Shown here: positions 11,371 to 54,955 of the stretch, piece by piece
Layout of the letters: each line of letters starts with the position of its first letter
Position numbering within the stretch: the first letter of the stretch is position 1
Assembly: GCF_902498805.1 (NCBI RefSeq)
Contig: NZ_LR701599.1
Span: 1,265-65,264, forward strand
Source of the DNA: Imperialibacter sp. EC-SDR9
GTDB lineage: Bacteria > Bacteroidota > Bacteroidia > Cytophagales > Cyclobacteriaceae
Direction: 5' to 3'
DNA: 64,000 nt
Notes under the pieces: model-generated
Seen by the model: only the letters and a program-made list of their open reading frames with translations
Told to the model about the DNA's origin: nothing
Databases searched by the model: none
Position numbers and translations under genes: made by a program

Positions 11371-11558
11371 TGTTAATTTAGACGCTACATTAGCGCAAAT
11401 AGTTGGGAGGGGCTCTACGACCCTCTCTAAGAGTGTCCGAAAGGTAGGAAGGGACGCTGTTCTTATTCAGCGTCTTTTTCGGGAAAGATATAGTCAAAAA
11501 CGATTTACGCTCCCTTTGTAAACATTTTTTATCTTACCTCTCCCAATCACCCTATATC

Positions 11559-33154: not shown

Positions 33155-33688
33155 TTAGCTTTCCATCCAGGCTACAATGCCCAAATGGTGGTGGTGGCTG
33201 ACACTTGCTGGTGTTGTGGTGCCGTTGTGTCTTACAGTCGGCAAGCCTGCCACATCCGATAACACTTGATAGCCTGGCCCCATTTCTCTTTGAAAGGAAT
33301 CTCGAAGCTCCTGAGACTGATTTGACGTATTCAGCATGAAGGTCTTCCATTTTACCGCTGCTATATTTGCGGTCGCCGCCACGGAGATGATATTGTCTTT
33401 TTTCAGGATAGAATAGCCGTTAATTTCATTCAGCCATTTTCCACGGTAGTGCAGCCTATCGTCTATTGCTTCAACATAATGTACTTCGATTTCTTTGGGA
33501 GAAAACGCCTGGTCTGATCTTTCGGCCTTAAATATTGCTTCTTTGGCAGCCCAGAGCAGCCAGTAGTGTGTTTCGTCGTCGGTGCCTTTGGGGCAACGGT
33601 CGTTGGGATGGGAAATAAAACTTATTTCCCTTTGAGAGCGTGGCTTGAGGAGTGGGTCTGTCAGGTCAACAATGTCAATCCCAATCAA
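33155..33688 (-). CDS. 4'-phosphopantetheinyl transferase superfamily protein
   Basis: 177 residues, last gene of the sphingolipid operon. The Mg-binding acidic residues appear in MIGIDIVDLT (Asp5), and the WxxKE motif as WAAKEAIFK (Lys49, Glu50), the signature of enzymes that add the phosphopantetheine arm to carrier proteins. The SHHH segment near the C-terminus (PASVSHHHHLGIV) sits where Sfp-type enzymes usually have their N-terminal SxSH motif, so the order looks permuted, and the tail after residue 125 is otherwise odd. Its start overlaps the ACP stop by 4 bp, so it very probably activates that ACP. Confidence 0.88.
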   Translation of the reverse strand: MIGIDIVDLTDPLLKPRSQREISFISHPNDRCPKGTDDETHYWLLWAAKEAIFKAERSDQAFSPKEIEVHYVEAIDDRLHYRGKWLNEINGYSILKKDNIISVAATANIAAVKWKTFMLNTSNQSQELRDSFQREMGPGYQVLSDVAGLPTVRHNGTTTPASVSHHHHLGIVAWMES

Positions 33689-33939
33689 TCCTTTTTCATT
33701 TTTTCCAGAATCACCTCAATGGCTTCGCCAATGGTATTCATCTTGTTGATGGACTCATCGTCGATAGTGATATCGTATTTTTCCTCAATATCAAGCACAA
33801 TGTCCACCACGTGGGCAGAGTTAATTTTAAGATCACCAATGAGTTGTATTTCGTCGGAGAGGTTGTCCAGTAACTCTTTTTGCATCACATAGGGTTCAAT
33901 AACACCTTTGATTTCTGCTTTGATTTCATCTTTGGTCAT
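33685..33939 (-). CDS. acyl carrier protein, dedicated copy
   Basis: 84 residues from the ATG at 33939; the longer frame would run back into the preceding gene. It has the four-helix ACP pattern with the attachment serine in LKINSAHVVDIVLDIEEKYD (Ser41). The usual DSL is NSA here, so this is not the housekeeping ACP. It starts 20 bp after the ketoacyl synthase stop and overlaps the phosphopantetheinyl transferase start by 4 bp. It most likely carries the fatty acyl chain made by the operon and hands it to serine palmitoyltransferase or to the N-acyltransferase. Confidence 0.92.
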   Translation of the reverse strand: MTKDEIKAEIKGVIEPYVMQKELLDNLSDEIQLIGDLKINSAHVVDIVLDIEEKYDITIDDESINKMNTIGEAIEVILEKMKKD

Positions 33940-33959
33940 AGGGGTGGTTGGTAAGGTTT

Positions 33960-35240
33960 TTAGGACGAAAACTTCCGCAAAATAATACAACTATTCACGT
34001 CCCCAAAGCCAAAGTTCGCTTTGGCAATGATGTTGAGGTTGGTTTCCACAGTGGCTGTTGGGATTTTTTCAGTCGGAATGATCTTCAGAATCTCCGGGTG
34101 AAGCTCCTCAATATTGAGGTTGCCGTGCACAAAGTTGCCATGCATTTGAAGGGCACACCCCACCAACTCGATAGAGCCTGCACCCGCAATGCAGTGCCCA
34201 ATCATTGATTTGGTCGCATTCACCAAAGGGAAATCGGCTGTTTTAACATTGAGCGCTTCCACCCAATTATTAAGTTCAATGGGATCGGCCATGGTGGACG
34301 TGAGGTGACCTGAAATGAGGTCGATAGACTCAGGTGTTACCCCAGCTTCTTTGATGGCATTTTTGATGCAGGCCTGCACGGCGGTGGAGTTGGGGGCTGT
34401 CATGGACCCGCCCATTCTTTGTCCCCCCGAATTGACGTCGCCTCCAAGGATCTCCGCATAAATCCGGGCACCTCTGGCAAGAGCCGTGTCGAGTTCTTCC
34501 AGCACCAGCGCTCCACCTCCTGCGCCGGGCACAAAACCTGACGATGTGCTGCTCATGGGCCTTGAGCCAAATGTCGGGTTGTCGTTGGAGTCTCTGCAAA
34601 GCACCCGCATCGAGTCGAAAGCCCCCCAGATGTATTTGCCTTTGCCTTCGGAGCTGCCACACAGCATTCGCTTCGCTTTGCCACTTTTAATAAGCTCATA
34701 GCCCATGATGGCCGCTTCGGTGCCAGTGCTGCAGGCCGACGAGTTGGACATGACACGGTTGCCTGCTCCGAGCATGCCGTTGAGGTAGGCACTCACCCCG
34801 CTGTTCATCGACTGAGTGATGGTTTTGGTGCCCAGCTTTTTCACCTGTCCGGCATTCACCAGGTCGAAGCGGGGCCCTATGCTTTCGTCCATACTCAGTG
34901 CTCCACCTCCATAGATGATGCCTAGTTCAGGGTCAAATTTGTCATAGTCAAGCGTAAGGCCCGCATCTTTCCAGGCTTCCAGACCCGACAAACAGCCATA
35001 GATCACGCCATGATTGTCTAGCATTTTGTTCAGGAGCTGAGGGAGAAGACTGAGCTTGTACTCCTCTGATACTTCGGGTTCACCAGCGATTTGACAACCC
35101 AGGTTGTGCTCGGCCAAAGTAGGTATCCGGGTAATGCCCGACTTCATGCCTCGCAAGGCGTGTTCAAAAGCCTCTTTTCCCGTAGCATTTGGTGCCACTA
35201 CGCCAAGTCCCGTGATAACTACTCGTTTATTTAAGCTCAT
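33960..35240 (-). CDS. beta-ketoacyl-ACP synthase (KAS I/II type)
   Basis: 426 residues with the full condensing-enzyme active site: nucleophile Cys170 in SNSSACSTGTEA, His312 in SGHLTSTMADPIE, and Lys344/His349 in NATKSMIGHCIAGAGS. GFGDVNSC near the end is the usual glycine-rich closure. It elongates acyl-ACP with malonyl-ACP. SGHLTST replaces the common HGTST, so it is a diverged KAS. It overlaps the dehydratase gene by 14 bp. Its place between a dehydratase and an ACP, behind serine palmitoyltransferase, suggests it extends a chain destined for sphingolipids. Confidence 0.93.
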   Translation of the reverse strand: MSLNKRVVITGLGVVAPNATGKEAFEHALRGMKSGITRIPTLAEHNLGCQIAGEPEVSEEYKLSLLPQLLNKMLDNHGVIYGCLSGLEAWKDAGLTLDYDKFDPELGIIYGGGALSMDESIGPRFDLVNAGQVKKLGTKTITQSMNSGVSAYLNGMLGAGNRVMSNSSACSTGTEAAIMGYELIKSGKAKRMLCGSSEGKGKYIWGAFDSMRVLCRDSNDNPTFGSRPMSSTSSGFVPGAGGGALVLEELDTALARGARIYAEILGGDVNSGGQRMGGSMTAPNSTAVQACIKNAIKEAGVTPESIDLISGHLTSTMADPIELNNWVEALNVKTADFPLVNATKSMIGHCIAGAGSIELVGCALQMHGNFVHGNLNIEELHPEILKIIPTEKIPTATVETNLNIIAKANFGFGDVNSCIILRKFSS

Positions 35241-35691
35241 TTTTATTCACTAGTAGGCCCGATAGATCGCCTTTACAAACAAGTTGCTGTGTGTCTCTGT
35301 TGTGGCATTCAATCCGGCATTTCAACTTACCGAATCTATAATAAATTTTGGAGGAAGTCACCTCAAGTGTTTGCTCAGGGTAGGCAGGCGAATAGAAATC
35401 GACGCAGGAAGAGGTGAAAACAGGCACCTTTCCATCCATCCCATCAGGGCTGCTGGTGCTGTTTAAGTACATGCCAAAACAAACCAGGCCAATTTGCGCC
35501 ATCACTTCGGTGATGATTACCCCAGGGGTGACAGGGTTGCCAGGAAAATGACCCTGATAGAAAAATTCATCCTTTTTTAGCTTATAGGTTCCTTTAATGG
35601 AGTTTTCGTCGGCACTGAGTATTTCATCCACAAACAAAAAAGGTGGACTGTAGGGTAGTTTTTGAATAATGGCTGCAAACAGTTCGCTCAT
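35227..35691 (-). CDS. 3-hydroxyacyl-ACP dehydratase (FabZ-like)
   Basis: 154 residues, hotdog fold. The FabZ active site is visible: His48 in YQGHFPGNPVTPGVI and Glu62 in TEVMAQIGL. Length and motif order match FabZ/FabA-type dehydratases. It removes water from 3-hydroxyacyl-ACP. Overlaps with its neighbours (4 bp with the reductase, 14 bp with the synthase) indicate translational coupling within the lipid operon. Confidence 0.92.
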   Translation of the reverse strand: MSELFAAIIQKLPYSPPFLFVDEILSADENSIKGTYKLKKDEFFYQGHFPGNPVTPGVIITEVMAQIGLVCFGMYLNSTSSPDGMDGKVPVFTSSCVDFYSPAYPEQTLEVTSSKIYYRFGKLKCRIECHNRDTQQLVCKGDLSGLLVNKNELK

Positions 35692-36461
35692 AGTAGGTGT
35701 TCGCCACCATCCACATGAATGGTGCTTCCGTTGATCCAGTTGGCTTCATCCAAAGATAACAGGTAAATGGCATTCGCTACATCTTCTGGCTGAGTCATTC
35801 TACCCATTGGGTTGTTTTTGGTTACCAATTCGATCATCTTTTCGTAGGAGGGGATCATCTTCAAAGATGGTGTAAGGGTCACACCTGCCTGTATCGTGTT
35901 CACCCTGATGCCGTGGGGGGCTAGCTCCACTGCCAGGTACCTGGTCAAAGTTTCGAGGGCTGATTTTGCCAGGGCGATGGCACCGTAGCCTTCCCATACC
36001 CGATCGTTACCCATAGAAGTCAACGTGATGATGCGGGCAGGTTTGGCAAAGAAGTTGTTTTTTAGCAGCGTGCGGGCCCAGGTAAACACATTGAGGGCCA
36101 TGGCGTCTATTGTCAGCTGCAAGTCCTGGAGGTTAAGCTCAGGGCTATCGTTTGAAACAAACGGTTTCAGGTTGCCACGGGAAACAGAGTGAAGCATCAG
36201 GCTGATATTGGCATTACCCAAAGCCTTTCTGAACTGCGGCTGGTGTTCGTCGATTTTCTCCTGGCTGGTGGCATCGAAGTTGAAGGAGATTAGCTGGGCA
36301 CCAGACTCCCGGATTTCACTGAATGCAGCTTCAATATCGGCCAGCACCGAGCGACGATCTCTGTGGACAATAAGCAGGTTCCAGCCACTTTTGCCTAACT
36401 TCTGTGCGGTAGCCAGCCCAATACCTGAAGAACCTCCCAGGATCAATGCCCATTTGCTCAT
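35688..36461 (-). CDS. SDR oxidoreductase, probable enoyl-ACP reductase (FabL/FabI-like)
   Basis: 257 residues. The cofactor loop is ILGGSSGIGLA (residues 7-17). The catalytic pair is Tyr159 and Lys166 in YGAIALAKSALE, with six residues between them. That Y-x6-K spacing marks enoyl-ACP reductases of the FabI/FabL type rather than ketoreductases (Y-x3-K). The run LETLTRYLAVELAPHGIRVN and NPMGRMTQPEDVANAI is FabL-like. It would complete the elongation cycle with the operon's synthase and dehydratase; the operon has no evident FabG ketoreductase. It overlaps both neighbours by 4 bp. Confidence 0.9.
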   Translation of the reverse strand: MSKWALILGGSSGIGLATAQKLGKSGWNLLIVHRDRRSVLADIEAAFSEIRESGAQLISFNFDATSQEKIDEHQPQFRKALGNANISLMLHSVSRGNLKPFVSNDSPELNLQDLQLTIDAMALNVFTWARTLLKNNFFAKPARIITLTSMGNDRVWEGYGAIALAKSALETLTRYLAVELAPHGIRVNTIQAGVTLTPSLKMIPSYEKMIELVTKNNPMGRMTQPEDVANAIYLLSLDEANWINGSTIHVDGGEHLL

Positions 36462-37588
36462 GGCTGGACGGGTTTAATGAAACACCTTCGGCGGATGGCA
36501 AGCCGGTTGCCTTCTCCGGTGTAGTCGTTCCACAGATTAAGCACATTGAAATTTTCTTCGAGCATAGGGCCCGTCATCACGTTGGTAGCGCCAGTTTTAA
36601 TAAAGTTGTCTAACATGCTCCTAAAGATAAGAACATTTGCTCCAAGCTTTTGATATTCGGGCTTCACCCCAATGAGAAACATGTCGAGGGTTTTGTTAAA
36701 ATAAAAATCTTTCAGGACGTGATAAAAACCAAACGGAAAAAGTGAGCCTTTGGCCTTTTGAAAGGCCTTCGAAAAAGAAGGGAAACAAATAGCGAACCCG
36801 ATGGCTTCGTCGCTCTCATTTACAACCACGCTCACATACTCCTTTCTTACCAGTCCAAAATATTGCTTCACGTAATAGTCAATCTGCTTTTGGGAGAGGG
36901 GATAATAGCCATACAAATTGGCGTACGACTCATTCAAAATTTCAAAGATACTATTGGCATAAACCAACATTTCCTTATTGGTCTTGAACTCTTTTACCTT
37001 GAATTTGAAGCGGCCTTCAACAATTTCGGCAGTTCTTTTTAGTCTTCTTGGAATCTCACTGGGTACAGCACCCCTGGCTTCCACCCAGTCACAGGCCTTT
37101 TCAAACCCCAGGGCTTCAAAATGCTCTTTGTAATAGGGGTAATTGTAGATAGTAGCCTGAGTGGCCATTTCTTCAAACCCATCAACGAGGGTGCCTTCAA
37201 AGTCAAGATCGGTAAAGCCCATTGGCCCGTGAATAGCCTTCACATTTTTTGATTTGGCCCAATTTTCAACAGCTTCGATGAGCTTCTTTGAAACATCCCT
37301 GTCGTCAATAAAGTCTACCCAGCCAAACCTAACCAGGGCCTTTTCCTGTAGCTCTGTGCCGTGGAGAATGCCCGCAACCCGTCCGACAATCTCGTCTCCG
37401 CTGTAAGCCAGAAAATAGGCAGCGGAGCAGTACTCAAATGCGGGGTTTTTGTCTTTGTTGAGTGTGCTTTCTTCAAACTGAACGAGCGGCGGCACCCAAT
37501 ACGGATGGTTTTTATAAAGCCTGAAGGGGAACCTTATGAACGCTTTTAAATCTTTGGAGGATTTTACTTCTCTAATTTCAATCGACAT
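36458..37588 (-). CDS. GNAT-fold acyltransferase, candidate bacterial ceramide synthase
   Basis: 376 residues, cytoplasmic. The N-terminal segment FIRFPFRLYKNHPYWVPPL and AYFLAYSGDEIVGRVAGILH, and a later motif A-like stretch, IGVKPEYQKLGANVLIFRSM, belong to a large GNAT-type group often labelled N-acetyltransferase. It sits 3 bp after the CerR-like reductase in an operon headed by serine palmitoyltransferase. In Caulobacter the ceramide N-acylation step is done by a GNAT-type enzyme (bCerS) unrelated to eukaryotic ceramide synthase, so this gene is a good candidate for the same role. The assignment rests on family and context; no substrate can be read. Confidence 0.72.
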   Translation of the reverse strand: MSIEIREVKSSKDLKAFIRFPFRLYKNHPYWVPPLVQFEESTLNKDKNPAFEYCSAAYFLAYSGDEIVGRVAGILHGTELQEKALVRFGWVDFIDDRDVSKKLIEAVENWAKSKNVKAIHGPMGFTDLDFEGTLVDGFEEMATQATIYNYPYYKEHFEALGFEKACDWVEARGAVPSEIPRRLKRTAEIVEGRFKFKVKEFKTNKEMLVYANSIFEILNESYANLYGYYPLSQKQIDYYVKQYFGLVRKEYVSVVVNESDEAIGFAICFPSFSKAFQKAKGSLFPFGFYHVLKDFYFNKTLDMFLIGVKPEYQKLGANVLIFRSMLDNFIKTGATNVMTGPMLEENFNVLNLWNDYTGEGNRLAIRRRCFIKPVQP

Positions 37589-37591
37589 AAT

Positions 37592-38554
37592 TTACAGAAG
37601 GCCGTTTTGTCTGTAATGCTCGGCAGATTCTTTCAACGCATCGCTCAAAGATGTGAAAATAAAATCTTTTGGCGTGATATCACCTTCTGCAATTCCCCAG
37701 TCGGCGGTGAGCTCGTTCATTTTTTCGGGGGTAAGCACAGGTTGCCCTTTGAAAATTTTGGCAAAGAACTCATTGGCATGGGCGTAGGGCATCATAACAA
37801 ATGAGGGGATACGAACCGTAACAGGTTTTTTCCCAATACAGTCGCCAATACAGCTATACAGCTCGCCAGGGGCGTAGTTTTTTCCATCCGTAGCTGCAAT
37901 GATGGTGCTGTCTGGTTGGGCGGGGGCGTAGTCCACCAGCAGCCTCGCCAGGTCTCTGGCAAAAATAAACGTTAGCTGCTGTGTTGGCTTCGCAAGCAGG
38001 GGAGCAATATTCATTTTGATAGCCTTAAAAAGCTTGAGGAAGGCAGCATCCCCAGGTCCGAATACGGCAGTCGGCCTGACAATCACCAATGGTAGCGACA
38101 TTTCCAAAAGTTGCTCTTCAGCCAATAGCTTGCTTCGACCATAGTTTGTTACAGGCTTTAACACACCGGAGGGGCCTCTGGCGGCCAGGGAGGATACATA
38201 GACAAATTTGCCTTTTGCTGAGAGCAGCCCTTGCTTTTCAATCAGCTTTGCAAACTTTACAGTGAGCACCTGATTCGTTTCGAAGAGCTTTTTAGGATCG
38301 AAGGCCTTTGTGAGCCCTGCGTTATGGATGATGAGGTCGAAAGTGCCATAAAGTTGTTTCAACTCTTCCATTTCTTTTTGCAGCAACTCTCCGGAGTGGT
38401 AGCTGAAAACGGTAGAAGGAACCTGCAGATTTTGCAGCTGGCTGGTGTCCGACGATTTCCGCACGCCAGCCACTACCTGATGCTTTTGACTAACAGCGTA
38501 TTTTACGATATGCGTTCCGATGAAGCCACTGGCTCCTATGACGAGGACTTTCAA
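37592..38554 (-). CDS. NAD(P)-dependent epimerase/reductase, CerR-like
   Basis: 320 residues, extended SDR. The nucleotide-binding loop is VIGASGFIGTHIV (residues 5-17). The catalytic residues are Ser121/Ser122 in VYVSSLAARG and Tyr138-x3-Lys142 in NYGRSKLL. It overlaps the serine palmitoyltransferase gene by 4 bp. In the bacterial sphingolipid pathway a similar epimerase-family protein (CerR) reduces the 3-keto group of the oxidised ceramide, so I assign that role by context. The family also includes sugar epimerases, so this is not proven. Confidence 0.8.
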   Translation of the reverse strand: MKVLVIGASGFIGTHIVKYAVSQKHQVVAGVRKSSDTSQLQNLQVPSTVFSYHSGELLQKEMEELKQLYGTFDLIIHNAGLTKAFDPKKLFETNQVLTVKFAKLIEKQGLLSAKGKFVYVSSLAARGPSGVLKPVTNYGRSKLLAEEQLLEMSLPLVIVRPTAVFGPGDAAFLKLFKAIKMNIAPLLAKPTQQLTFIFARDLARLLVDYAPAQPDSTIIAATDGKNYAPGELYSCIGDCIGKKPVTVRIPSFVMMPYAHANEFFAKIFKGQPVLTPEKMNELTADWGIAEGDITPKDFIFTSLSDALKESAEHYRQNGLL

Positions 38555-39768
38555 TGGGCAGCCATGTTCTTGTCCTGCAACGTTTCGATGCCAAGCTTTT
38601 TCATGGTCTTGTAGATTTTTTCGACTGCAATATCAATTTGTTCTTTGGTATGCGACGCCATCAGGCTGAAGCGAATCATGGTGTCCTCGGGGCCAACGGC
38701 CGGAGGAATAACAGGATTGACGAAAAGCCCGGCTTTGAAGAGTTCGGTAGTGAGTTCAAACGTCTTCATGAAATTTCGGACGTAGATAGGTATAATGGGC
38801 GTCTCCGTTTTTCCTATATCGATGCCATATTCTCTGAAAAGCCTGTGGGCGTGGTGTGTGTTATCCCAAAGTTTCGCTATCAACGAGTCGTCGCTTTCGA
38901 GCAAATCCAGCACGGCAAGCACAGAGGCCACCGTAGAAGCTGGCATGCTGGCACTGAAGATCAGCGCTCTGGAGTGGTGCTTCAGGTAGTTGATGGTATC
39001 GGCGTCTGACGCCACAAAACCGCCAATAGATGCCAGCGACTTACTGAAAGTACCGCCAATCAGATCGACTTCATTGTCGAGACCGAAGTGGCTGGAGGTG
39101 CCGGCACCATTTTTCCCAAGCACACCAATGGCATGGGCACAATCGGTCATGATGGTGGCTCCGTATTTGTTGGCCAGGCGCACAATTTCTGGCAGGTTGG
39201 CAATATCACCTTCCATGCTGAACACGCCATCGACAACGATGAGCTTCAATTGTGAATCGCCACACATTTGGAGCTTTTTCTCCAGTGCGTCCATGTCGTT
39301 GTGCTTGAATTTCAGTTTTCTTGCAAACGACAACCTGCTGCCTTCTATAATGGAGGCATGGTCAAACTCATCGAGAATGATGGTGTCTTCTTTGGTGGTG
39401 AGGCAGGGAATAACCCCCAGATTTACCTGAAAGCCCGTGGTGTAAACCAATACCGCTTCTTTATTCAGGAACTTCGCCAGCCTGTTCTCAAGCTCCACAT
39501 GGAGATCGAGCGTTCCGTTCAAAAACCTTGAACCTGCGCAGCCGGTACCGTATTTTTTTATGGCCGCCGCTGAGGCTTCCATTACCTTGGGATGGTTGGT
39601 CAGTCCGAGGTAGCTGTTCGACCCGAACATGAGCACCTGATGACCGTCGATGGTTACTTCTGTGCCCTGCTCTGACTCAATAGGGCGGAAGAAAGGATAC
39701 TGACCAAGTCTTTTTACCTTTTGAGGCTCCTGGTAAGTACTCGTACGTTTTCTCAATTTGTCATTCAT
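38551..39768 (-). CDS. spt: serine palmitoyltransferase (alpha-oxoamine synthase)
   Basis: 405 residues, PLP-dependent. It condenses L-serine with an acyl thioester to 3-ketosphinganine, the first committed sphingolipid step. The PLP lysine is Lys243 in GGTFSKSLASIGG, the ring-stacking His is His137 in DEFDHASIIEG, and GSRFLNGTLDLHVELE and FGSNSYLGLTNHP are typical of Bacteroidota SPT. The motif that usually reads DEAH is DCAH (Asp209, His212). It is the first gene of the minus-strand operon, so the promoter lies in 39769-39929. An alternative is a cysteate acyltransferase for capnine-type sulfonolipids, known in Cytophagales, from the same fold; I favour SPT because of the following CerR-like and GNAT genes. 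Confidence 0.9.
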   Translation of the reverse strand: MNDKLRKRTSTYQEPQKVKRLGQYPFFRPIESEQGTEVTIDGHQVLMFGSNSYLGLTNHPKVMEASAAAIKKYGTGCAGSRFLNGTLDLHVELENRLAKFLNKEAVLVYTTGFQVNLGVIPCLTTKEDTIILDEFDHASIIEGSRLSFARKLKFKHNDMDALEKKLQMCGDSQLKLIVVDGVFSMEGDIANLPEIVRLANKYGATIMTDCAHAIGVLGKNGAGTSSHFGLDNEVDLIGGTFSKSLASIGGFVASDADTINYLKHHSRALIFSASMPASTVASVLAVLDLLESDDSLIAKLWDNTHHAHRLFREYGIDIGKTETPIIPIYVRNFMKTFELTTELFKAGLFVNPVIPPAVGPEDTMIRFSLMASHTKEQIDIAVEKIYKTMKKLGIETLQDKNMAAH

Positions 39769-45054: not shown

Positions 45055-45544
45055 GTGTTGTTTTGCTTAGGGTATAGCTTGGTAAAATGGAGGGTTGCTT
45101 AGGTGCAATTTGTTTGGTTACTAGACTTTTTTGGTGATTTTTTCGACAACCATGGTTTCTGAATATGTTCTCAAACGTAGCAATTTCTAAGTAATAGTGA
45201 GCGGTTGAAGTTTACGAAAGTCACCTTATTTTTTGAGGTAATCTTTTTGCCTGGGCAAATGAATTCTCTGGTTTCTCAGCTATTGCGGCCATTTTTCAAA
45301 AATGAAAGCAAGATGCAAAGTACAGCCTTTGAGTTGGAACAAGTGACCTTTTTTTATCGCTTTTGTACCGCTTTGGGGAAATTTGTGCCTTTTTTGAGGC
45401 GTCGCTCGTATGTTCCATTTCTGGTTGCATAAAGAATCTGGTGAGCTTCTGGCTGCCGGTTTTTTTGAGAAAAGGAAATTTTCTTGCCTACTTTGCTGCC
45501 TTGCTGCTGAGCAACAAGCGGCAGGTAGAACGAAAAGCCACTTA
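45055..45544. other. intergenic region between divergent Wzi-like and ABC genes
   Basis: No convincing gene is visible. It should hold divergent promoters for the Wzi-like gene and the ABC exporter. Frames in it (for example around 45205-45432) have no signal or family. The frame of the ABC gene stays open upstream to 45410, but that part reads as a cysteine-rich, low-quality sequence and is probably not translated. Confidence 0.55.
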
Positions 45545-47167
45545 GTGAAACTAATCTACTCTTTACTTCTGACAAGCTGGAAAAAGCTGTTTTTTGCCAT
45601 GTTGATGAGCATTGTGGCCGGAGGGTTGTATGCTTTGTCTATCAAGTTTCTTCACGAAATCATTACCAGCGATTCCGGGTTGATGCTGGTGTTTTACAAG
45701 CTCAATATTTCCATCATTGTCTCAACAGCCTTGTCGGTGTTTGCCGGACATTACCTTACCAAAGTGTATGAGGGCCAGGTATCTGACCTCCGTCTTTCCA
45801 TATCAAAGAAAATCCTGAAGGCCGATTTTTTTCATGTAGAGCAGAACTCTCTTCAAATAATGCCTGTGCTGAATAACGACATCAATACCATTGGTGCGTT
45901 CATAAAAACGGTGCCTGATTTTTTTGTTTCAATTTCAAAAGTTGTTGCCTGTGTTGCCTATATGTTCTGGCTGTCATGGCAGCTCACGGCCTACGTGATG
46001 AGCATTTACGCCCTGGTATTCCTGGTTTCGATGATCGTTTTTCCAAGAGTACATAAGCAGGAAAGGATGATCAGAGAGCTGAAGAATGACATTTTCGAGC
46101 ATATCAATGGTCTGGTGAGAGGGCTCAAGGAGCTGTCCCTCAACAAAAAGCATAAGGCTATTTACGTGCAGGATATTATGGGCCCCACCAGCCGCAAACA
46201 CAGCGACAGTTTAACGATTCTTGGCACGCTGCACATATTTGTCACCAAGGTTGGAGAGCTGATTGTGATTGTTTCGCTTTCGGTGCTGCTGATTAAATAC
46301 AACGACATTGTGGTGATGGACAGCGGTTTGCTGCTGGAGTTTTTGACGGTGGTCATGTTCGTTTTGCCAGCACTGATTATTACGACGACTTTTCTTAATA
46401 ACATAAAAAAGGTGGAGGTTGCCCTCAATGCGATCGGCAAGCTGGGAATTGAGTATCAACCAGACAAAGAAGCAAAGCAGCAGCCGGTGAGCCCAATCGG
46501 GGCTCGCCAGGAGCCTTTGATTGCTCTTAAAGATGTGGGGTTTGAATATGGTTCGGAAAGGGAAGCAAATGGGTTTCACATCGGTCCGTTTAATCTGACG
46601 ATCAACCGTGGAGAAATCGTTTACCTGAGTGGGGGAAATGGCAGCGGAAAAACGACATTGGGCAAACTGATTGTGGGACTTTATCGCCCAAGCTCAGGCA
46701 AGGTTTTATTTCAGGGGCAGGAAATAGACGATCGGAAAAACGAAGACTATCGCAACCAGTTCGCAGCGCTGTTCCCCGATTCTCATGTGTTTAGAGGGCT
46801 GCAGTACATTGATGATGGATACCTTCAACAGCATGGAGAGCGACTTATCAAGATGCTCAATATCGAGGAAATTGTAAATATCAAGGATAAATCGCTGTCT
46901 ACCATACGGGTGTCGTCGGGCCAGCAGGGCAGATTGTCACTGTTGAGGTCGCTACTGGAAGACAAAGAAATTTACCTGTTCGATGAGTGGGCGGCTAATC
47001 AGGATCCGCTTTTCAAACTGAAATTTTATGGGTCAATTATCCCGGATTTGAAGAAAGAAGGAAAGACTGTCATCGTGATTACCCACGATGAGTCCTATTT
47101 CCATATGGCCGATAGAATTATCAAGCTCGAAGATGGCCACGTTGTCAGGCAGCACACCGGCAAATAG
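45545..47167 (+). CDS. ABC exporter of the cyclic-peptide (SyrD/PvdE) type
   Basis: From the GTG at 45545 (VKLIYSLLLTSWKKLF) this gives 540 residues, the usual length of the group. The frame extends back to an ATG at 45410, adding 45 unlikely residues. It has six membrane helices and then an ATPase: Walker A GGNGSGKTTLGK, a degenerate signature SSGQQGRLSLL, Walker B IYLFDEWAANQDP, and the switch histidine ITHDES. It is a fused half-transporter like PvdE and SyrD, which move siderophore precursors or lipopeptides. Its place beside glycosyltransferases and a lipid desaturase suggests the cargo is a lipid-linked product. Direction is outward in the family. Confidence 0.87.
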   Translation: MKLIYSLLLTSWKKLFFAMLMSIVAGGLYALSIKFLHEIITSDSGLMLVFYKLNISIIVSTALSVFAGHYLTKVYEGQVSDLRLSISKKILKADFFHVEQNSLQIMPVLNNDINTIGAFIKTVPDFFVSISKVVACVAYMFWLSWQLTAYVMSIYALVFLVSMIVFPRVHKQERMIRELKNDIFEHINGLVRGLKELSLNKKHKAIYVQDIMGPTSRKHSDSLTILGTLHIFVTKVGELIVIVSLSVLLIKYNDIVVMDSGLLLEFLTVVMFVLPALIITTTFLNNIKKVEVALNAIGKLGIEYQPDKEAKQQPVSPIGARQEPLIALKDVGFEYGSEREANGFHIGPFNLTINRGEIVYLSGGNGSGKTTLGKLIVGLYRPSSGKVLFQGQEIDDRKNEDYRNQFAALFPDSHVFRGLQYIDDGYLQQHGERLIKMLNIEEIVNIKDKSLSTIRVSSGQQGRLSLLRSLLEDKEIYLFDEWAANQDPLFKLKFYGSIIPDLKKEGKTVIVITHDESYFHMADRIIKLEDGHVVRQHTGK

Positions 47168-50009: not shown

Positions 50010-50857
50010 TAAATGTACGGGCTTAACCGGTTCGATCGGTTAACAGTGATTCTCAGGCCAAGGCAAAAAACTACCCGAATAAATTTAGCGACATGCGTGA
50101 CGCTGGTGCTGTAGGTTCTAGGACTGACCCAGCCATTGTTTTTCCCGGCTACTTTTATGTTCTTCACAAGGTGCCTCTCCCTGATGAAATCTTTGCTCAG
50201 CACCTTCATTGTGTATAGAAACAAGCGATCCCGTATGTCTCGTTGAGACACCTCCGGATATACGACGCTTGCATGCTTTGCCTTGTTTTCTGCTTCCGCC
50301 ACAATTTTCGATACCCACTCAGGATTTGATTTCTTGTCTTGCTTGTTGTCCCACTTGATTTCTAGCCGGATGTCGAGGTGTCTCATTAACCGTTTCCATT
50401 CGTCAGGCCCGTTCTCGATATTGATATGAATAAACCTCGGGTTGGCCTGGAAAAAGTGTAGTACTCTTTTCCGGTAAATGAGCCAGTCAATCAATATTTG
50501 GCGGTAGATCGTTTTGCCCATGATTAGCCTGGAAAGGCGAACGATTGCCTTGTCATCCGACATGTGCCGCTCGTCGATATGGCTGAACCAGTTGAACATG
50601 CTGAGAATCCAGCGGGAAGGCTCCCTATCCAGCAGAACTATTTTTGCATCAGGAAACCAGGCGGTGAGGTGACGAAAATTGTGGAGGCTGCCATCCAGAA
50701 AGTAGTCGAATTTCGAAAAAAATGCTTCGTCTGGCTCAGCCAGGTGAGAATACACCCCGAAGTGCGGCGTATGGGTGACACGCAGCCCTTTCTCCTTCAA
50801 TGCATTGGTAATGCTGGTGGTGCCCATTTTAGACGAGCCGATGAAAAACACTTTCAT
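50006..50857 (-). CDS. sulfotransferase
   Basis: 283 residues. The 5'-phosphosulfate-binding loop is FFIGSSKMGTTSITNAL (residues 4-20), and the 3'-phosphate-binding segment is VLLDREPSRWILSMF. These are the two PAPS contacts of the sulfotransferase fold. It would transfer sulfate from PAPS to a hydroxyl of a sugar or lipid. The gene overlaps a GT4 glycosyltransferase by 4 bp (start at 50857 within the stop of the other), so they are coupled. This is the main sign that the product of the region is sulfated. Confidence 0.85.
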   Translation of the reverse strand: MKVFFIGSSKMGTTSITNALKEKGLRVTHTPHFGVYSHLAEPDEAFFSKFDYFLDGSLHNFRHLTAWFPDAKIVLLDREPSRWILSMFNWFSHIDERHMSDDKAIVRLSRLIMGKTIYRQILIDWLIYRKRVLHFFQANPRFIHINIENGPDEWKRLMRHLDIRLEIKWDNKQDKKSNPEWVSKIVAEAENKAKHASVVYPEVSQRDIRDRLFLYTMKVLSKDFIRERHLVKNIKVAGKNNGWVSPRTYSTSVTHVAKFIRVVFCLGLRITVNRSNRLSPYIY

Positions 50858-52050
50858 AGATTATCGGCTACTGGTTTTTGAAAAAGCTCGAAATAGGCTT
50901 GTGCCATGCTGTCCCAGGTGAACATCTCCTTCTCGGTATTGTTTTTGAACAACTGGCCAAGTTTTTTGAGTTCTTCTTTGTCGGCCAGCAGTTTGTTAAC
51001 TGGCTTGCTCCATGCTTCTCCGTCGCCGGAGGGCAGCAGCAAGCCATTGAAGGTGTCTTTTACTGCAGATGGAATGCCGTCTACTCTTGCTGCCAGGCAA
51101 ACCAGCCCGCTGACGGCCGCTTCCAAAGCTACGAGGCCAAATCCTTCGTAATCACCGTCAATATGCAAGTTGGGCATCACAAACAAATCGGCATGCAAAA
51201 GCAGCTGATCCAGTTCAGCTTGGGGTAATTTTCCTGTAAATAACACTTTGTCTCTATAGACAGGCTCTTTCATGAGCTTATCCAGTTCAAGGGCTTCCAG
51301 GCCAAAGCCAAAAAGATGAGCGAGTTTCTTGAAAACCGATGCCGGAAGTACTTTAGAAAACCACAATATGAGCTTAATGTTCTTCTCTCTGGGCCCAACA
51401 ATGACATAAAAGACGGGCGTTTGTATTTGTGGGAGCACATTTTTTATGAACCAAACAAAGCCCTTCCGTTTAATTGGTCGGCCAATCGATACTATCAAAG
51501 ATTTGTTGTTGATGGCCACTCCACATCGGTCCCTGAACAGAGAGTAGATGGCTTCATTTTTTTGTGGGCTTGGCAGTGGCTCAAATCCATTGGGGATATA
51601 ATGCGTCCTGGCTGAAGGGATGCCTGCCTTGATGCATTCAAGCCTTGTCTCGTCGCTCACGGCAATAATCCAGGTAAATTTTGACAGGTATTTTCGCAGC
51701 CATAACTGGTATAAGGTCGACTTGAAGATAACATCGAGGCCATGGACTGTGGCAGCCATTTTTTTTCGGGTGAGCCAGAGTAGGGGAGTTAAAAACAGTG
51801 CCATGAGTCCGTCGTTGGCGTGAATGACAGCTATGCGTGGATTGCTCCAAACCTTGAATAAGCACCACGGAACAACCGAGATGAAAAATAGCGCTTTAGG
51901 GTATTTTCCACTAAAGATAATTTTGTGGACTATTGTATATGATTGCAGGTTTTTGATCAACTCATAGCTTTGCTTTTGCATGCCGCCAACGGATGGAGGA
52001 TATTTGTGCGTAACAACAAGAACTTCGGAATCGCTTCGGCCTGCCAACAT
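50854..52050 (-). CDS. glycosyltransferase family 4
   Basis: 398 residues, GT-B fold. VVTHKYPPSVGGMQKQSYEL at the start is the acceptor-domain glycine loop. VSIGRPIKRKGFVWF opens the donor domain, and the donor motif E-x7-E lies in YEGFGLVALEAAVSG. It is a retaining glycosyltransferase; the sugar is unknown. It is the first gene of a two-gene unit with the sulfotransferase, and its start is 17 bp from the divergent GT4 gene at 52068. Confidence 0.88.
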   Translation of the reverse strand: MLAGRSDSEVLVVTHKYPPSVGGMQKQSYELIKNLQSYTIVHKIIFSGKYPKALFFISVVPWCLFKVWSNPRIAVIHANDGLMALFLTPLLWLTRKKMAATVHGLDVIFKSTLYQLWLRKYLSKFTWIIAVSDETRLECIKAGIPSARTHYIPNGFEPLPSPQKNEAIYSLFRDRCGVAINNKSLIVSIGRPIKRKGFVWFIKNVLPQIQTPVFYVIVGPREKNIKLILWFSKVLPASVFKKLAHLFGFGLEALELDKLMKEPVYRDKVLFTGKLPQAELDQLLLHADLFVMPNLHIDGDYEGFGLVALEAAVSGLVCLAARVDGIPSAVKDTFNGLLLPSGDGEAWSKPVNKLLADKEELKKLGQLFKNNTEKEMFTWDSMAQAYFELFQKPVADNL

Positions 52051-52067: not shown

Positions 52068-53213
52068 ATGAGCAAAGTTAAGATTGTATTTTTTATTGAT
52101 GTACTCAAAAAGGATTTTGATGGGGTGTCTAACACCACCAGCCAAATTGCCTACCGCCTGCCCAGGGACCAATTTGACGCCATCTTTATCACTCCGCTGC
52201 CGCCAGAAGACCCGGAGTTTCCGTTTCCTGTGTACAAGTGCCCATCGATAGACCTACCGCTTTATAAGCAATACAAACTGGCGCTACCCAAGCGAATGAA
52301 GGAATTGGAGGCAATTCTCGATGACTTCAAGCCCGATATCGTACATTGGAGCACCCCATCGGCACTAGGCTGGTATGCTGTGAACTATGCGAAAAAAAAC
52401 AAGATTCCTGCGGCAACTATATACCACACGCACTTCACTTCCTATGTAGAATACTTCTTAAGGTTTGTGCCTGGTATCGATAAGATTTCGCCTCCGATAG
52501 CCCGGCGGCTGCTTTCGCTGTACAAAGACTGTTCACTTGTGCTGGCACCCACCGAAAGCATGAGTGATTACCTGAAAGTATTGAGAGTTGATGCTGGCAA
52601 AATAAACGTATGGGGCAGGGGGGTCAATCAGCACCTGTTTTCTCCCGATTTCCGGGACGATAAGTTTTTCACTCCATACGGCGTCACCAGCAAAAAGAAG
52701 ATTCTTTTTGTCAGTCGGCTGGTGAGTTACAAGTCCACCGACAGCCTGATAGAGCTCTATAAGTTGCTTGACAAAGGCCATAAGCTGATTGTCACTGGTG
52801 ATGGTCCCGACATGGAGAGGCTTCAAAGTAAGATGCCAGAGGCTGTGTTTACAGGAAAACTCACCGGTGAAGCACTTTCCAAAGTATTTGCCTCGGCCGA
52901 TGTGTTTGTCTTTCCGTCGGTTACGGAAACGTTTGGTAACGTGATTCTTGAGGCCATGGCTTCCGGACTGCCAGTGGTGGCCGCAAGGGCTGGAGGCCCA
53001 GCTGACATCATTGAACATGGAGTTACCGGTTTTTTGGCTGAACCCGGTAACACCAAAGAAATGTATGGTCATGTAAAGTCATTGCTGTCAGATGATGAAC
53101 TGCATGCAATGATCAGAGAAAAGGCGATTTACTACGCCAGCCAGCAAAACTGGGACGTACTGTGCCAGCGGCTGTTCGACTACTACACCGATTTAGCCAA
53201 AACAGCTTCATGA
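52068..53213 (+). CDS. glycosyltransferase family 4, lipid-GT-like
   Basis: 381 residues, GT-B fold. FDGVSNTTSQIAYRLPRDQF forms the N-terminal loop, and PSVTETFGNVILEAMASGLP holds the E-x7-E donor motif. The overall sequence (SLVLAPTESMSDYL, NVWGRGVNQHLFSP) resembles SQD2/MgtA-type transferases that glycosylate membrane lipids, so a lipid acceptor is likely. It is first of a three-gene unit (this gene, a GT34-like transferase with ATGA overlap, and the DES1-like desaturase), which ties glycosylation and lipid desaturation together. Confidence 0.88.
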   Translation: MSKVKIVFFIDVLKKDFDGVSNTTSQIAYRLPRDQFDAIFITPLPPEDPEFPFPVYKCPSIDLPLYKQYKLALPKRMKELEAILDDFKPDIVHWSTPSALGWYAVNYAKKNKIPAATIYHTHFTSYVEYFLRFVPGIDKISPPIARRLLSLYKDCSLVLAPTESMSDYLKVLRVDAGKINVWGRGVNQHLFSPDFRDDKFFTPYGVTSKKKILFVSRLVSYKSTDSLIELYKLLDKGHKLIVTGDGPDMERLQSKMPEAVFTGKLTGEALSKVFASADVFVFPSVTETFGNVILEAMASGLPVVAARAGGPADIIEHGVTGFLAEPGNTKEMYGHVKSLLSDDELHAMIREKAIYYASQQNWDVLCQRLFDYYTDLAKTAS

Positions 53214-53932
53214 GCCTGACCTTTAAGATACTTCAGCTGGCTACGCCAAACATCGATTCTTACGCTGCCTATAGCATTGCCTCTGTGCGGGGCTATGCAA
53301 AAAAACATGGTTATCAGCATTTGGTGCAACGCAGCCGGTTGGTTGATGATATGCATATCAATTGGACCAAAATTGCGCTGTTACAAAACGCCCTGACGGA
53401 AAAAGACGTCGATTATGTGGTGCTGTTAGATGCGGATATTATCCTCACAGCTACCGCCCTGCACCTGGAAGACTTTGTGAAGATGGGGAATGAAGCAACG
53501 CACATACTGATGCCTGGCGATACGCCGTTGTTAGGAGGTAAAAGGCCTAACGCAGGGATGATCATTGTTAAAAACAGTCCCGAGGGCAGAGGCATTATTG
53601 ACTATTGGCTGCATGCAGCCCGCCACGAAGGCAAGCACCTGGCAGATACCCACCCGAGAAATCAGCTGGTGTACTGGAATTTCGTGATGCCCAGGTTCAA
53701 ACCCCTTCAGTTTATTATTCCAAGGTCATTTGCCAGGAAGTATTACCCTGTTTACGACTACCTGGGACTGCGTGGGGGATTTTTGTGGCATGTGACCCAA
53801 ACTAATGAGGGCGTAAGAGAAAAGTATATGAAGAGGCTTTACGAGCAACACAGGTCAGAAATGGGCGACCTTCAGGCCACTTTAGAAGCGCTGAAAGAAG
53901 CAACGCAAGGGTTGGTTAAATTGGTTGAGTAA
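53210..53932 (+). CDS. GT34-like glycosyltransferase
   Basis: 240 residues from the ATG at 53210, which overlaps the preceding stop as ATGA. MHINWTKIALLQNALTEKDV, then VVLLDADIIL (metal-binding DAD at 74-76) and GGKRPNAGMIIVKNS match the pattern of the GMA12/MNN10 galactosyl/mannosyltransferase family (GT34), which is mainly eukaryotic. It has no membrane anchor and would work at the cytoplasmic side. The acceptor is probably the product of the preceding GT4 enzyme. The C-terminal tail is a charged helix. Confidence 0.78.
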   Translation: MSLTFKILQLATPNIDSYAAYSIASVRGYAKKHGYQHLVQRSRLVDDMHINWTKIALLQNALTEKDVDYVVLLDADIILTATALHLEDFVKMGNEATHILMPGDTPLLGGKRPNAGMIIVKNSPEGRGIIDYWLHAARHEGKHLADTHPRNQLVYWNFVMPRFKPLQFIIPRSFARKYYPVYDYLGLRGGFLWHVTQTNEGVREKYMKRLYEQHRSEMGDLQATLEALKEATQGLVKLVE

Positions 53933-54001: not shown

Positions 54002-54955
54002 TTGGAGAAGATTGCCGGTTTGAAAAACGCTCAATCATTTTACTGGGAAGAAAGCAGAGAGCCACACTTTCAGCGCAGAAAGCAAATTATGAATGAAGTG
54101 CCTGAGGTGAAGAAGCTTTTTGGTACCGACCCTCTTTTAAAGTACAAAGCGATTTTTGTACTGCTGCTGCAACTGGCTATTCCTGTATTTTTTCTACCCG
54201 AAAATCCATACCTGTTTGCCCTGCTGGTGGTGGTTGTGGGTGCCACACTTAGTCAAATTCTTTTTTTGGCTATTCACGAAATCACCCATGACCTGGCGTT
54301 TAAAAACCCAGTACTCAATAATGTTTTGGCCATCATTGTTAACTTCCCCATTGTGTTTCCCTTTAGTATGGCATTTAAGGTGTACCACGCTAAGCACCAC
54401 TGGCACCAGGGCAAGGAGGGAGTTGACACAGACCTGCCGACGGACGGTGAAGCACTTCTGTTTAAGGGTTTTTTCGGTAAGCTGATTTGGCTGGTGAATC
54501 AAATCCTTTTTTATGCCATCAGACCACTCATGGTGCACCCTATCAAACCCGACAAGTGGCAAGTCATCAATCTGGTGTCTCAGTTGTTATTCGTTGTGGT
54601 GTTTTACCAACTGGCAGGTATTGCCGGTTTTGTTTATCTCATTGCCTCGCTGTTTGTAGCCGGCGGGCTTCACCCCATAGCCGGCCACTTTATAGCAGAG
54701 CACTACGTTTTCAAAGAAGGTCAGGAAACCTATTCGTACTACGGTTTCCTGAACAAGATTACTTTCAATGTAGGCTTTCATAACGAGCACCACGACTTCC
54801 CTAAAATTCCCGGTAGTCGGCTGCCAAAGTTGAAGAAACTTGCCCCCAACCATTACGACCGCCTCTATTCGCACACCTCATGGTCAAAGGTGCTTTGGCG
54901 GTTTGTTTCCGAGGAATCAATGACGCTTTACGCACGGGTCAAGCGCAACAACTAG
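54002..54955 (+). CDS. fatty acid desaturase, dihydroceramide delta-4 desaturase (DES1)-like
   Basis: 317 residues from a TTG start; an internal ATG at 54089 would cut conserved sequence. All three histidine boxes of membrane di-iron desaturases are present: His92-x3-His96 in AIHEITHD, His129-x2-HH (132-133) in YHAKHHWHQG, and His260-x2-HH (263-264) in FHNEHHDFP. From memory of the human enzyme, their spacing and residue numbers almost match DES1, as do VDTDLPTDGE, HPIAGHFIAEHY and ETYSYYGFLNKITFNVG. About four membrane helices are visible. It probably puts the 4,5 double bond into the sphingoid base of dihydroceramide, using oxygen and an electron donor not encoded nearby. It is 69 bp downstream of the GT34-like gene in the same direction. 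Confidence 0.93.
   Translation: MEKIAGLKNAQSFYWEESREPHFQRRKQIMNEVPEVKKLFGTDPLLKYKAIFVLLLQLAIPVFFLPENPYLFALLVVVVGATLSQILFLAIHEITHDLAFKNPVLNNVLAIIVNFPIVFPFSMAFKVYHAKHHWHQGKEGVDTDLPTDGEALLFKGFFGKLIWLVNQILFYAIRPLMVHPIKPDKWQVINLVSQLLFVVVFYQLAGIAGFVYLIASLFVAGGLHPIAGHFIAEHYVFKEGQETYSYYGFLNKITFNVGFHNEHHDFPKIPGSRLPKLKKLAPNHYDRLYSHTSWSKVLWRFVSEESMTLYARVKRNN

Follow-up and report, generated by a model that had tools for sequence, protein, structure and literature searches.

The gene at positions 54002-54955 of the window (the whole 64,000-nucleotide stretch of Imperialibacter sp. EC-SDR9 DNA analysed here) probably encodes a bacterial DES-family sphingolipid delta-4 desaturase, which would make (4E)-ceramide from the dihydroceramide of an operon in the same window; the activity, regiochemistry and electron donor are predictions. 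Computed support for this assignment comes from domain membership, purifying selection, protein fold, genomic linkage and co-occurrence with serine palmitoyltransferase (SPT). The desaturase family is already known, and the domain name itself says sphingolipid delta-4 desaturase.

Identification of a DES-type desaturase gene

The gene and the features of its product are as follows.

54002..54955, plus strand: gene of the DES-type desaturase, TTG 54002 as start giving 317 aa (PF00487, PF08557, AlphaFold2 model and trees)
54032..54136, plus strand: Lipid_DES N-terminal domain (PF08557), residues 11-45, 46.4 bits, gathering cut-off 23
54275..54289, plus strand: His box 1, HEITH, residues 92-96; H92 and H96 invariant in alignment A2
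54386..54400, plus strand: His box 2, HAKHH, residues 129-133; H129, H132 and H133 invariant in alignment A2
54779..54793, plus strand: His box 3, HNEHH, residues 260-264; H260, E262, H263 and H264 invariant in alignment A2

This open reading frame is real and not a chance one, as seen from the domain scores, from 96% identity to the desaturase of a genome of the same genus (G001) and from the substitution rates over the whole gene between the two (dN 0.019, dS 0.586, ratio 0.033). A preliminary description of the window had taken the segment before Met30 to be genuine and translation to start at a TTG. The segment is indeed genuine: Lipid_DES spans residues 11-45, so the start must precede Met30, and codons 1-29 show a dN/dS of 0.09 between the window and G001 (six changes only). 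As for the start codon, coding upstream of Met30 agrees with a TTG. A second in-frame TTG at 54020 would give a 311-aa product whose N-terminus (MKNAQSFYW) comes nearer to the length seen in relatives, for example L001 (MKQQDFTW). Both TTGs are kept in G001, ATG being absent there in both genomes, and either of them, 54002 or 54020, is a possible start.

In addition to Lipid_DES, the protein matches FA_desaturase (PF00487 of Pfam; 90.2 bits, cut-off 29.7). The three histidine boxes reported earlier (HEITH, HAKHH and HNEHH) are all present, and their nine key residues are invariant in alignment A2, which consists of 68 sequences of desaturase relatives. NCBIfam desaturase models score far under their cut-offs on the window protein (26.4 and 34.5 bits for DesA/DesB, cut-off 500 each), a search of PDB sequences gave no significant match, and the five other FA_desaturases of the same genome align to it in short pieces only (best E 6e-4). 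Compared with provisional, non-database copies of the human DEGS1 and Arabidopsis DES sequences, the window protein shows 43% identity over 312 aa and 46% identity over 307 aa, respectively. It has in common with eukaryotic DES proteins (DES1/DEGS1, plant and fungal) both Lipid_DES and FA_desaturase, the three His boxes and a similar length; it differs from them in being bacterial, in its linkage to a bacterial ceramide operon, in having no ATG start and in that its activity is predicted. The acyl-lipid desaturases DesA/DesB and stearoyl-CoA desaturase belong to the same membrane di-iron superfamily, but the NCBIfam model of DesB is the one giving 34.5 of 500 bits. Lipid_DES, the low NCBIfam scores and the position in trees on the side of the provisional eukaryotic DES sequences (see below) favour kinship with DES1 over kinship with the ordinary acyl-lipid desaturases, as had been proposed at first sight of the gene.

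The AlphaFold2 model of the desaturase (pLDDT 94.7, pTM 0.91) was matched by two chains of chloroplast FtsHi motor complexes with Z-scores of 18.9 (8xks_K, also found by Foldseek with E 2.8e-6) and 17.6, by the alkane monooxygenase FtAlkB with 14.7 and more weakly, by stearoyl-CoA desaturase SCD1 with 6.5-6.7. For helical proteins, a Z-score as low as that of SCD1 can also come from a shared arrangement. As modelled, the protein has the membrane di-iron desaturase/hydroxylase fold. Domains, fold and His boxes cannot tell hydroxylase from desaturase activity, and the DES family is described as including DES2, a desaturase as well as a hydroxylase (PMC10499023, PMC12993136). A C4-hydroxylase, or a mixed desaturase/hydroxylase like DES2, would yield phytoceramide instead of or beside the 4-ene; we consider this rather improbable, while none of our observations speaks decisively against it, and the delta-4 desaturase is the reading that we prefer.

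Ceramide operon and genes around the desaturase

A ceramide operon occupies positions 33155-39768 on the minus strand. Its genes, followed by those identified between it and the desaturase, are listed below.

38551..39768, minus strand: serine palmitoyltransferase (SPT), NF047600 639.3 bits; PDB SPT 8guh/3a2b 485.5 bits
37592..38554, minus strand: NAD-dependent epimerase-type reductase, PF01370 72.3 bits
36458..37588, minus strand: GNAT-like acyltransferase, PF00583 27.1 bits, cut-off 20.7
35688..36461, minus strand: SDR reductase, PF13561 164.1 bits
35227..35691, minus strand: FabA/FabZ-like dehydratase, PF07977 51.7 bits
33960..35240, minus strand: beta-ketoacyl-ACP synthase (KAS), PF00109 84.6 bits, PF02801 86.4 bits
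33685..33939, minus strand: small ORF resembling an acyl carrier protein, lying between KAS and PPTase, recognised by eye from the sequence
33155..33688, minus strand: 4'-phosphopantetheinyl transferase (PPTase), PF01648 34 bits, cut-off 25
45410..47167, plus strand: ABC exporter-like protein, TIGR01194 326.5 bits, cut-off 286.2
50854..52050, minus strand: second GT4 glycosyltransferase, PF00534 88.3 bits; 45% identical copy near the L078 desaturase
52068..53213, plus strand: GT4 glycosyltransferase upstream of the desaturase, PF00534 115.6 bits; 47% identical L078 neighbour
53207..53932, plus strand: GT34-like glycosyltransferase ending 69 bases before the desaturase, PF05637 39.4 bits

The product of 38551..39768 falls 0.7 bits under the NF047600 cut-off of 640 and is treated here as an SPT, the kind of enzyme that it matches best in PDB. 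Operon position and the literature on bacterial ceramide synthesis suggest that the epimerase-type reductase carries out ketosphinganine reduction in a CerR-like manner and make the GNAT-like protein a candidate bacterial ceramide synthase. The preliminary description had placed the desaturase next to a sphingolipid operon; a ceramide operon with SPT does lie in the window, but the two are not adjacent, 14.2 kb separating the SPT gene start (39768) from the desaturase, with Wzi-like (capsule-like), ABC exporter-like and several glycosyltransferase-like genes between them.

Elsewhere in the window, positions 1-1064 form a tandem array (473-base unit, 2.2 copies, 98% matches), and ARAGORN called a tRNA-Pyl (CTA) at 11397-11480 on the plus strand, a call that is probably false, since Rfam, run with its gathering thresholds, gave no match anywhere in this stretch.

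We also weighed whether the enzyme desaturates or hydroxylates not ceramide but the capnine base found in sulfonolipids, a lipid class that this genome may produce beside sphingolipids. Such a substrate would be available, since an enzyme encoded on another contig of this genome (L130; G000 contig C26:284160-285290) is likely a cysteate-C-fatty acyltransferase, matching PDB 28eh with 577 bits behind the generically named enzyme 7u7h with 587 bits. A likely cysteate acyltransferase is also encoded in a genome that has a B-type desaturase (see below) and no SPT (L128; 28eh 560 bits behind 7u7h 578), and Algoriphagus RIF-1 is reported to bear a 5-hydroxy capnine base (PMC3463246). Against this stands the neighbourhood conserved in the window's clade, which is the SPT operon; the SPT of the window operon scores 485.5 bits with bacterial SPT and 254.5 bits with the cysteate enzyme 28eh. 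We consider action on capnine very unlikely and keep action on dihydroceramide as the preferred reading. The window operon itself was likewise rejected as a sulfonolipid operon, its enzyme being nearest SPT and the likely cysteate enzyme lying on the other contig.

Linkage of the desaturase and the ceramide operon in relatives

In the clade of the window, the ceramide operon was found less than 15 kb from the desaturase in all seven loci with enough flank, the window included (two pairs among them, L037 with G032 and the window with G001, are closely related); an eighth member, L038, is on a 5-kb contig and was left out of the count. The nearest core operon gene is 271 bases away in L041, 1169 in L125 (G035), 1175 in both L126 (G032) and L037, and 1482 in L078; the distance grows to 11.2 kb in G001 and to about 14 kb in the window. 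Strand and gene order differ among these loci, and the linkage has therefore survived rearrangement. The L041 contig comes from a metagenome-assembled genome (MAG) labelled Rickettsiales and carries a Bacteroidetes-like desaturase together with a ceramide operon whose SPT is 70% identical to that of the window; its label or binning may be wrong.

On a wider scale the linkage is of limited spread, which speaks against the preferred reading. We considered 35 loci with more than 9.5 kb on each side, taken from the best 80 of at least 579 relatives and including members of the clade. An SPT-like and a GNAT-like gene near the desaturase were detected in five of them (L037, L041, L078, L096 and L107), and the pair was absent from the nine A-type loci of Saprospiraceae, Ignavibacteria and Balneolaceae, from the two of Myxococcota/Bacteriovoracaceae, from all 18 B-type loci and from L106. 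One B-type locus with a shorter flank, L104, has SPT, a reductase and a GNAT-like protein. In Legionella parisiensis (L096, 167-13292), an A-side DES gene is clustered with a 1112-aa AMP-binding/carrier/oxoamine-synthase fusion and with PAP2, CDP-alcohol phosphatidyltransferase, SDR and glycosyltransferase genes (all by Pfam), as well as with a gene whose product is 25% identical to the window GNAT-like enzyme and in which Pfam finds no domain. BLAST matches of the same kind were obtained in L. gratiana (L107), the GNAT-like match being 25-26% across both Legionella loci. The L096 cluster is a candidate for a separate sphingolipid cluster.

Two bacterial branches and the place of eukaryotic DES

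Phylogenetic analyses divide the bacterial sequences into an A-side, which holds the window protein and in which most sequences read GH[FY]xxEH[YF] at the HPIAGHFIAEHY site, and a B-type branch with GARWIQEHY or close variants at that site. This split was recovered with support of 100/99 in both main trees, and the provisional human and Arabidopsis DES sequences fall on the A-side together with the window. The first main tree took in 20 of the 61 B-type rows; the second omitted L106 and 19 other A-side rows, and two of the rows added to it are poor, L143 (read in the wrong frame at the edge of a contig) and L141 (a very long branch). B-type proteins resemble the window protein in having Lipid_DES and the same His boxes (rows in A2 about 35-43% identical), but they are separate at 100/99 and occur in some genomes without SPT. 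Both branches are seen in Bacteroidota, Myxococcota and Bacteriovoracaceae. In the first tree the window belongs to an eight-row clade (97/98) of Cyclobacteriaceae/Flammeovirgaceae-like genomes and the MAG labelled Rickettsiales.

The provisional human DEGS1 and Arabidopsis DES sequences group with Myxococcota and a Bacteriovoracaceae protein, with support of 100/95 in the first tree and 100/94 in the second, which has six additional Myxococcota rows there, one being identical to L075. The AU test rejects placement of the eukaryotic rows inside the A-type group of Bacteroidota, Ignavibacteria and Balneolaceae (p 0.025) and with the B-type branch (p 0.028). That eukaryotic DES joins the Myxococcota/Bacteriovoracaceae enzymes is a lead, drawn from two provisional sequences, a thin sample with long branches.

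To compare the gene with ordinary desaturases, a tree was built with the five other FA_desaturases of the same genome. Four of them stood outside the DES family (94/88), but the fifth (OG_L122) fell inside it on a branch of length 10, a position that is plainly an artefact, the rows being too divergent for alignment, and the tree is accordingly not a clean comparison. In it the eukaryotic rows were again with the Myxococcota group (99/91), but a single branch no longer set all B-type sequences apart.

The tree position with the provisional DES1 sequence also bears on whether the enzyme could act on the amide-linked acyl chain, as a 2-hydroxylase or an acyl desaturase. Both kinds of chemistry are performed within one membrane di-iron superfamily, and Caulobacter CC_0202, a protein of the DesA family connected with bacterial sphingolipids, has been suggested as the enzyme that hydroxylates the sphingolipid acyl chain in Caulobacter (PMC11324152). 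CC_0202 differs from the window protein in that suggested acyl-chain target, and Lipid_DES was found in none of 14 control genomes, including that of Caulobacter vibrioides, where FA_desaturase does occur. Together with the tree position, this makes an acyl-chain enzyme like CC_0202 highly improbable, slightly more so than action on capnine, in comparison with a desaturase of the sphingoid base.

Distribution and co-occurrence with SPT

Among 59 near relatives, a set that contains the genome of the window itself, 8 had Lipid_DES over its cut-off, as did 30 of 296 genomes sampled across the phylum and 19 of 146 genomes of a Myxococcota draw (the phylum of Hyalangium). Seven genomes of the Myxococcota draw (G359, G376, G393, G452, G462, G484 and G514) have two Lipid_DES genes each above the cut-off, with differing scores. 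A scan of GTDB contigs gave at least 596 pattern stretches, of which at least 579 encode a relative (called by tblastn); titles among the best 80 of these name Bacteroidetes, Balneolaceae, Ignavibacteria, Myxococcota, Bacteriovoracaceae, Legionella and, for a few MAGs, other groups. With this wide spread, the gene is no peculiarity of a single genome. According to the earlier remark, such an enzyme would be notable in a bacterium with SPT; the organism does have an SPT operon, but the gene is not exceptional, as the counts for the phylum and for Myxococcota show. Mobile origin was considered and rejected: there was no phage match, 30 stretches matched in a scan of viral contigs contained no relative, and the two plasmid desaturases found are distant (25-26% identity).

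Within the class of the window, taken to be Bacteroidia, SPT (at least 590 bits) was detected in 11 of 16 genomes with Lipid_DES versus 3 of 69 without it (Fisher p 6e-8), the 69 being those listed without the domain and not a random draw, with two further genomes of the class that have SPT without Lipid_DES (G285 and G293) lying outside them. Counted by genus, the figures are 8 of 13 versus 3 of 63 (p 9e-6). Both p-values are optimistic because genomes share ancestry. The sample comprised the own genome and genomes of the same genus, family, order and class; 20 Lipid_DES genomes of other classes were dropped. The five Lipid_DES genomes without SPT (G018, G053, G055, G304 and G206) count against the preferred reading, but all of them are B-type, and SPT reaches at least 604 bits in the eight scored A-type genomes (G000, G001, G032, G035, L037, L039, L041 and L044), which are of the window's class or Bacteroidetes-like records; Aureispira (L067) has an SPT-like match of 483 bits. 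Among 21 genomes searched through named loci, 15 had an SPT-like match of at least 450 bits; none was obtained in three Legionella genomes, in two Chitinophagaceae with the B-type or in L106.

In genomes of other classes, SPT-like proteins scoring about 470-526 bits turn up in nearly all of those listed (224 of 296 overall). Co-occurrence there says nothing because such proteins are nearly universal, and a phylum-wide comparison (31 of 36 versus 3 of 69) was dropped on the same ground. The link between desaturase and ceramide operon is supported by the neighbourhood in the clade and by co-occurrence within the class.

Proposed mechanism

SPT and its partner enzymes from the operon at 33-40 kb would provide dihydroceramide, the predicted substrate of the desaturase. 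On the pattern of its family, the enzyme would lie in the membrane, with a predicted di-iron centre held by the three His boxes, and would use O2 and two electrons to take hydrogens off C4 and C5 of the sphingoid base, leaving a double bond of predicted position and trans geometry and thereby ceramide. Electrons might arrive via a small cytochrome b5-like protein; the genome has one ORF with a Cyt-b5 domain (95 aa, 30.4 bits, cut-off 23.7) on another contig, which is a possible carrier. The neighbouring glycosyltransferases may use the ceramide product. Glycosylation is suggested because the L078 desaturase, too, is flanked by copies of two of the window's GT4 genes and of its PLOD-type gene, and in a moss sphingoid base desaturation is reported to enable glycosylceramide formation (PMC8318264).

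Implications for bacterial and eukaryotic sphingolipids

Descriptions of bacterial sphingolipids usually present them as saturated dihydroceramides, and 4E-unsaturated bases were reportedly described in Flectobacillus major by Batrakov et al. in 2000. No bacterial sphingolipid delta-4 desaturase with tested activity was found among the papers listed by full-text searches of an open-access library, which covers few subscription journals. In a 2016 classification, delta-4 sphingolipid desaturases form their own cluster, which its text does not analyse further, and clusters contain sequences from different kingdoms (PMC5037126); because of this, bacterial members may already be in its data set. 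The window gene is a family member with a clear genetic context and an evolutionary lead.

Many signalling functions of ceramide in animals reportedly require its double bond, and the table of a 2026 review lists DEGS1 as arising in early eukaryotes (PMC12993136). A broad bacterial family of DEGS1-type enzymes would change this early-eukaryotic view. We tentatively put forward, as a possibility that we hold with some reserve, that DES diversified in bacteria, that the eukaryotic enzyme came from a Myxococcota- or Bdellovibrionota-like donor, and that bacteria living today, this one among them, produce genuine (4E)-ceramides, perhaps in glycosylated form, which animals and protists could read as their own. 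The linked operon genes make the predicted activity directly testable. At the level of prediction, our findings suggest that some bacteria make 'eukaryote-style' unsaturated ceramides.
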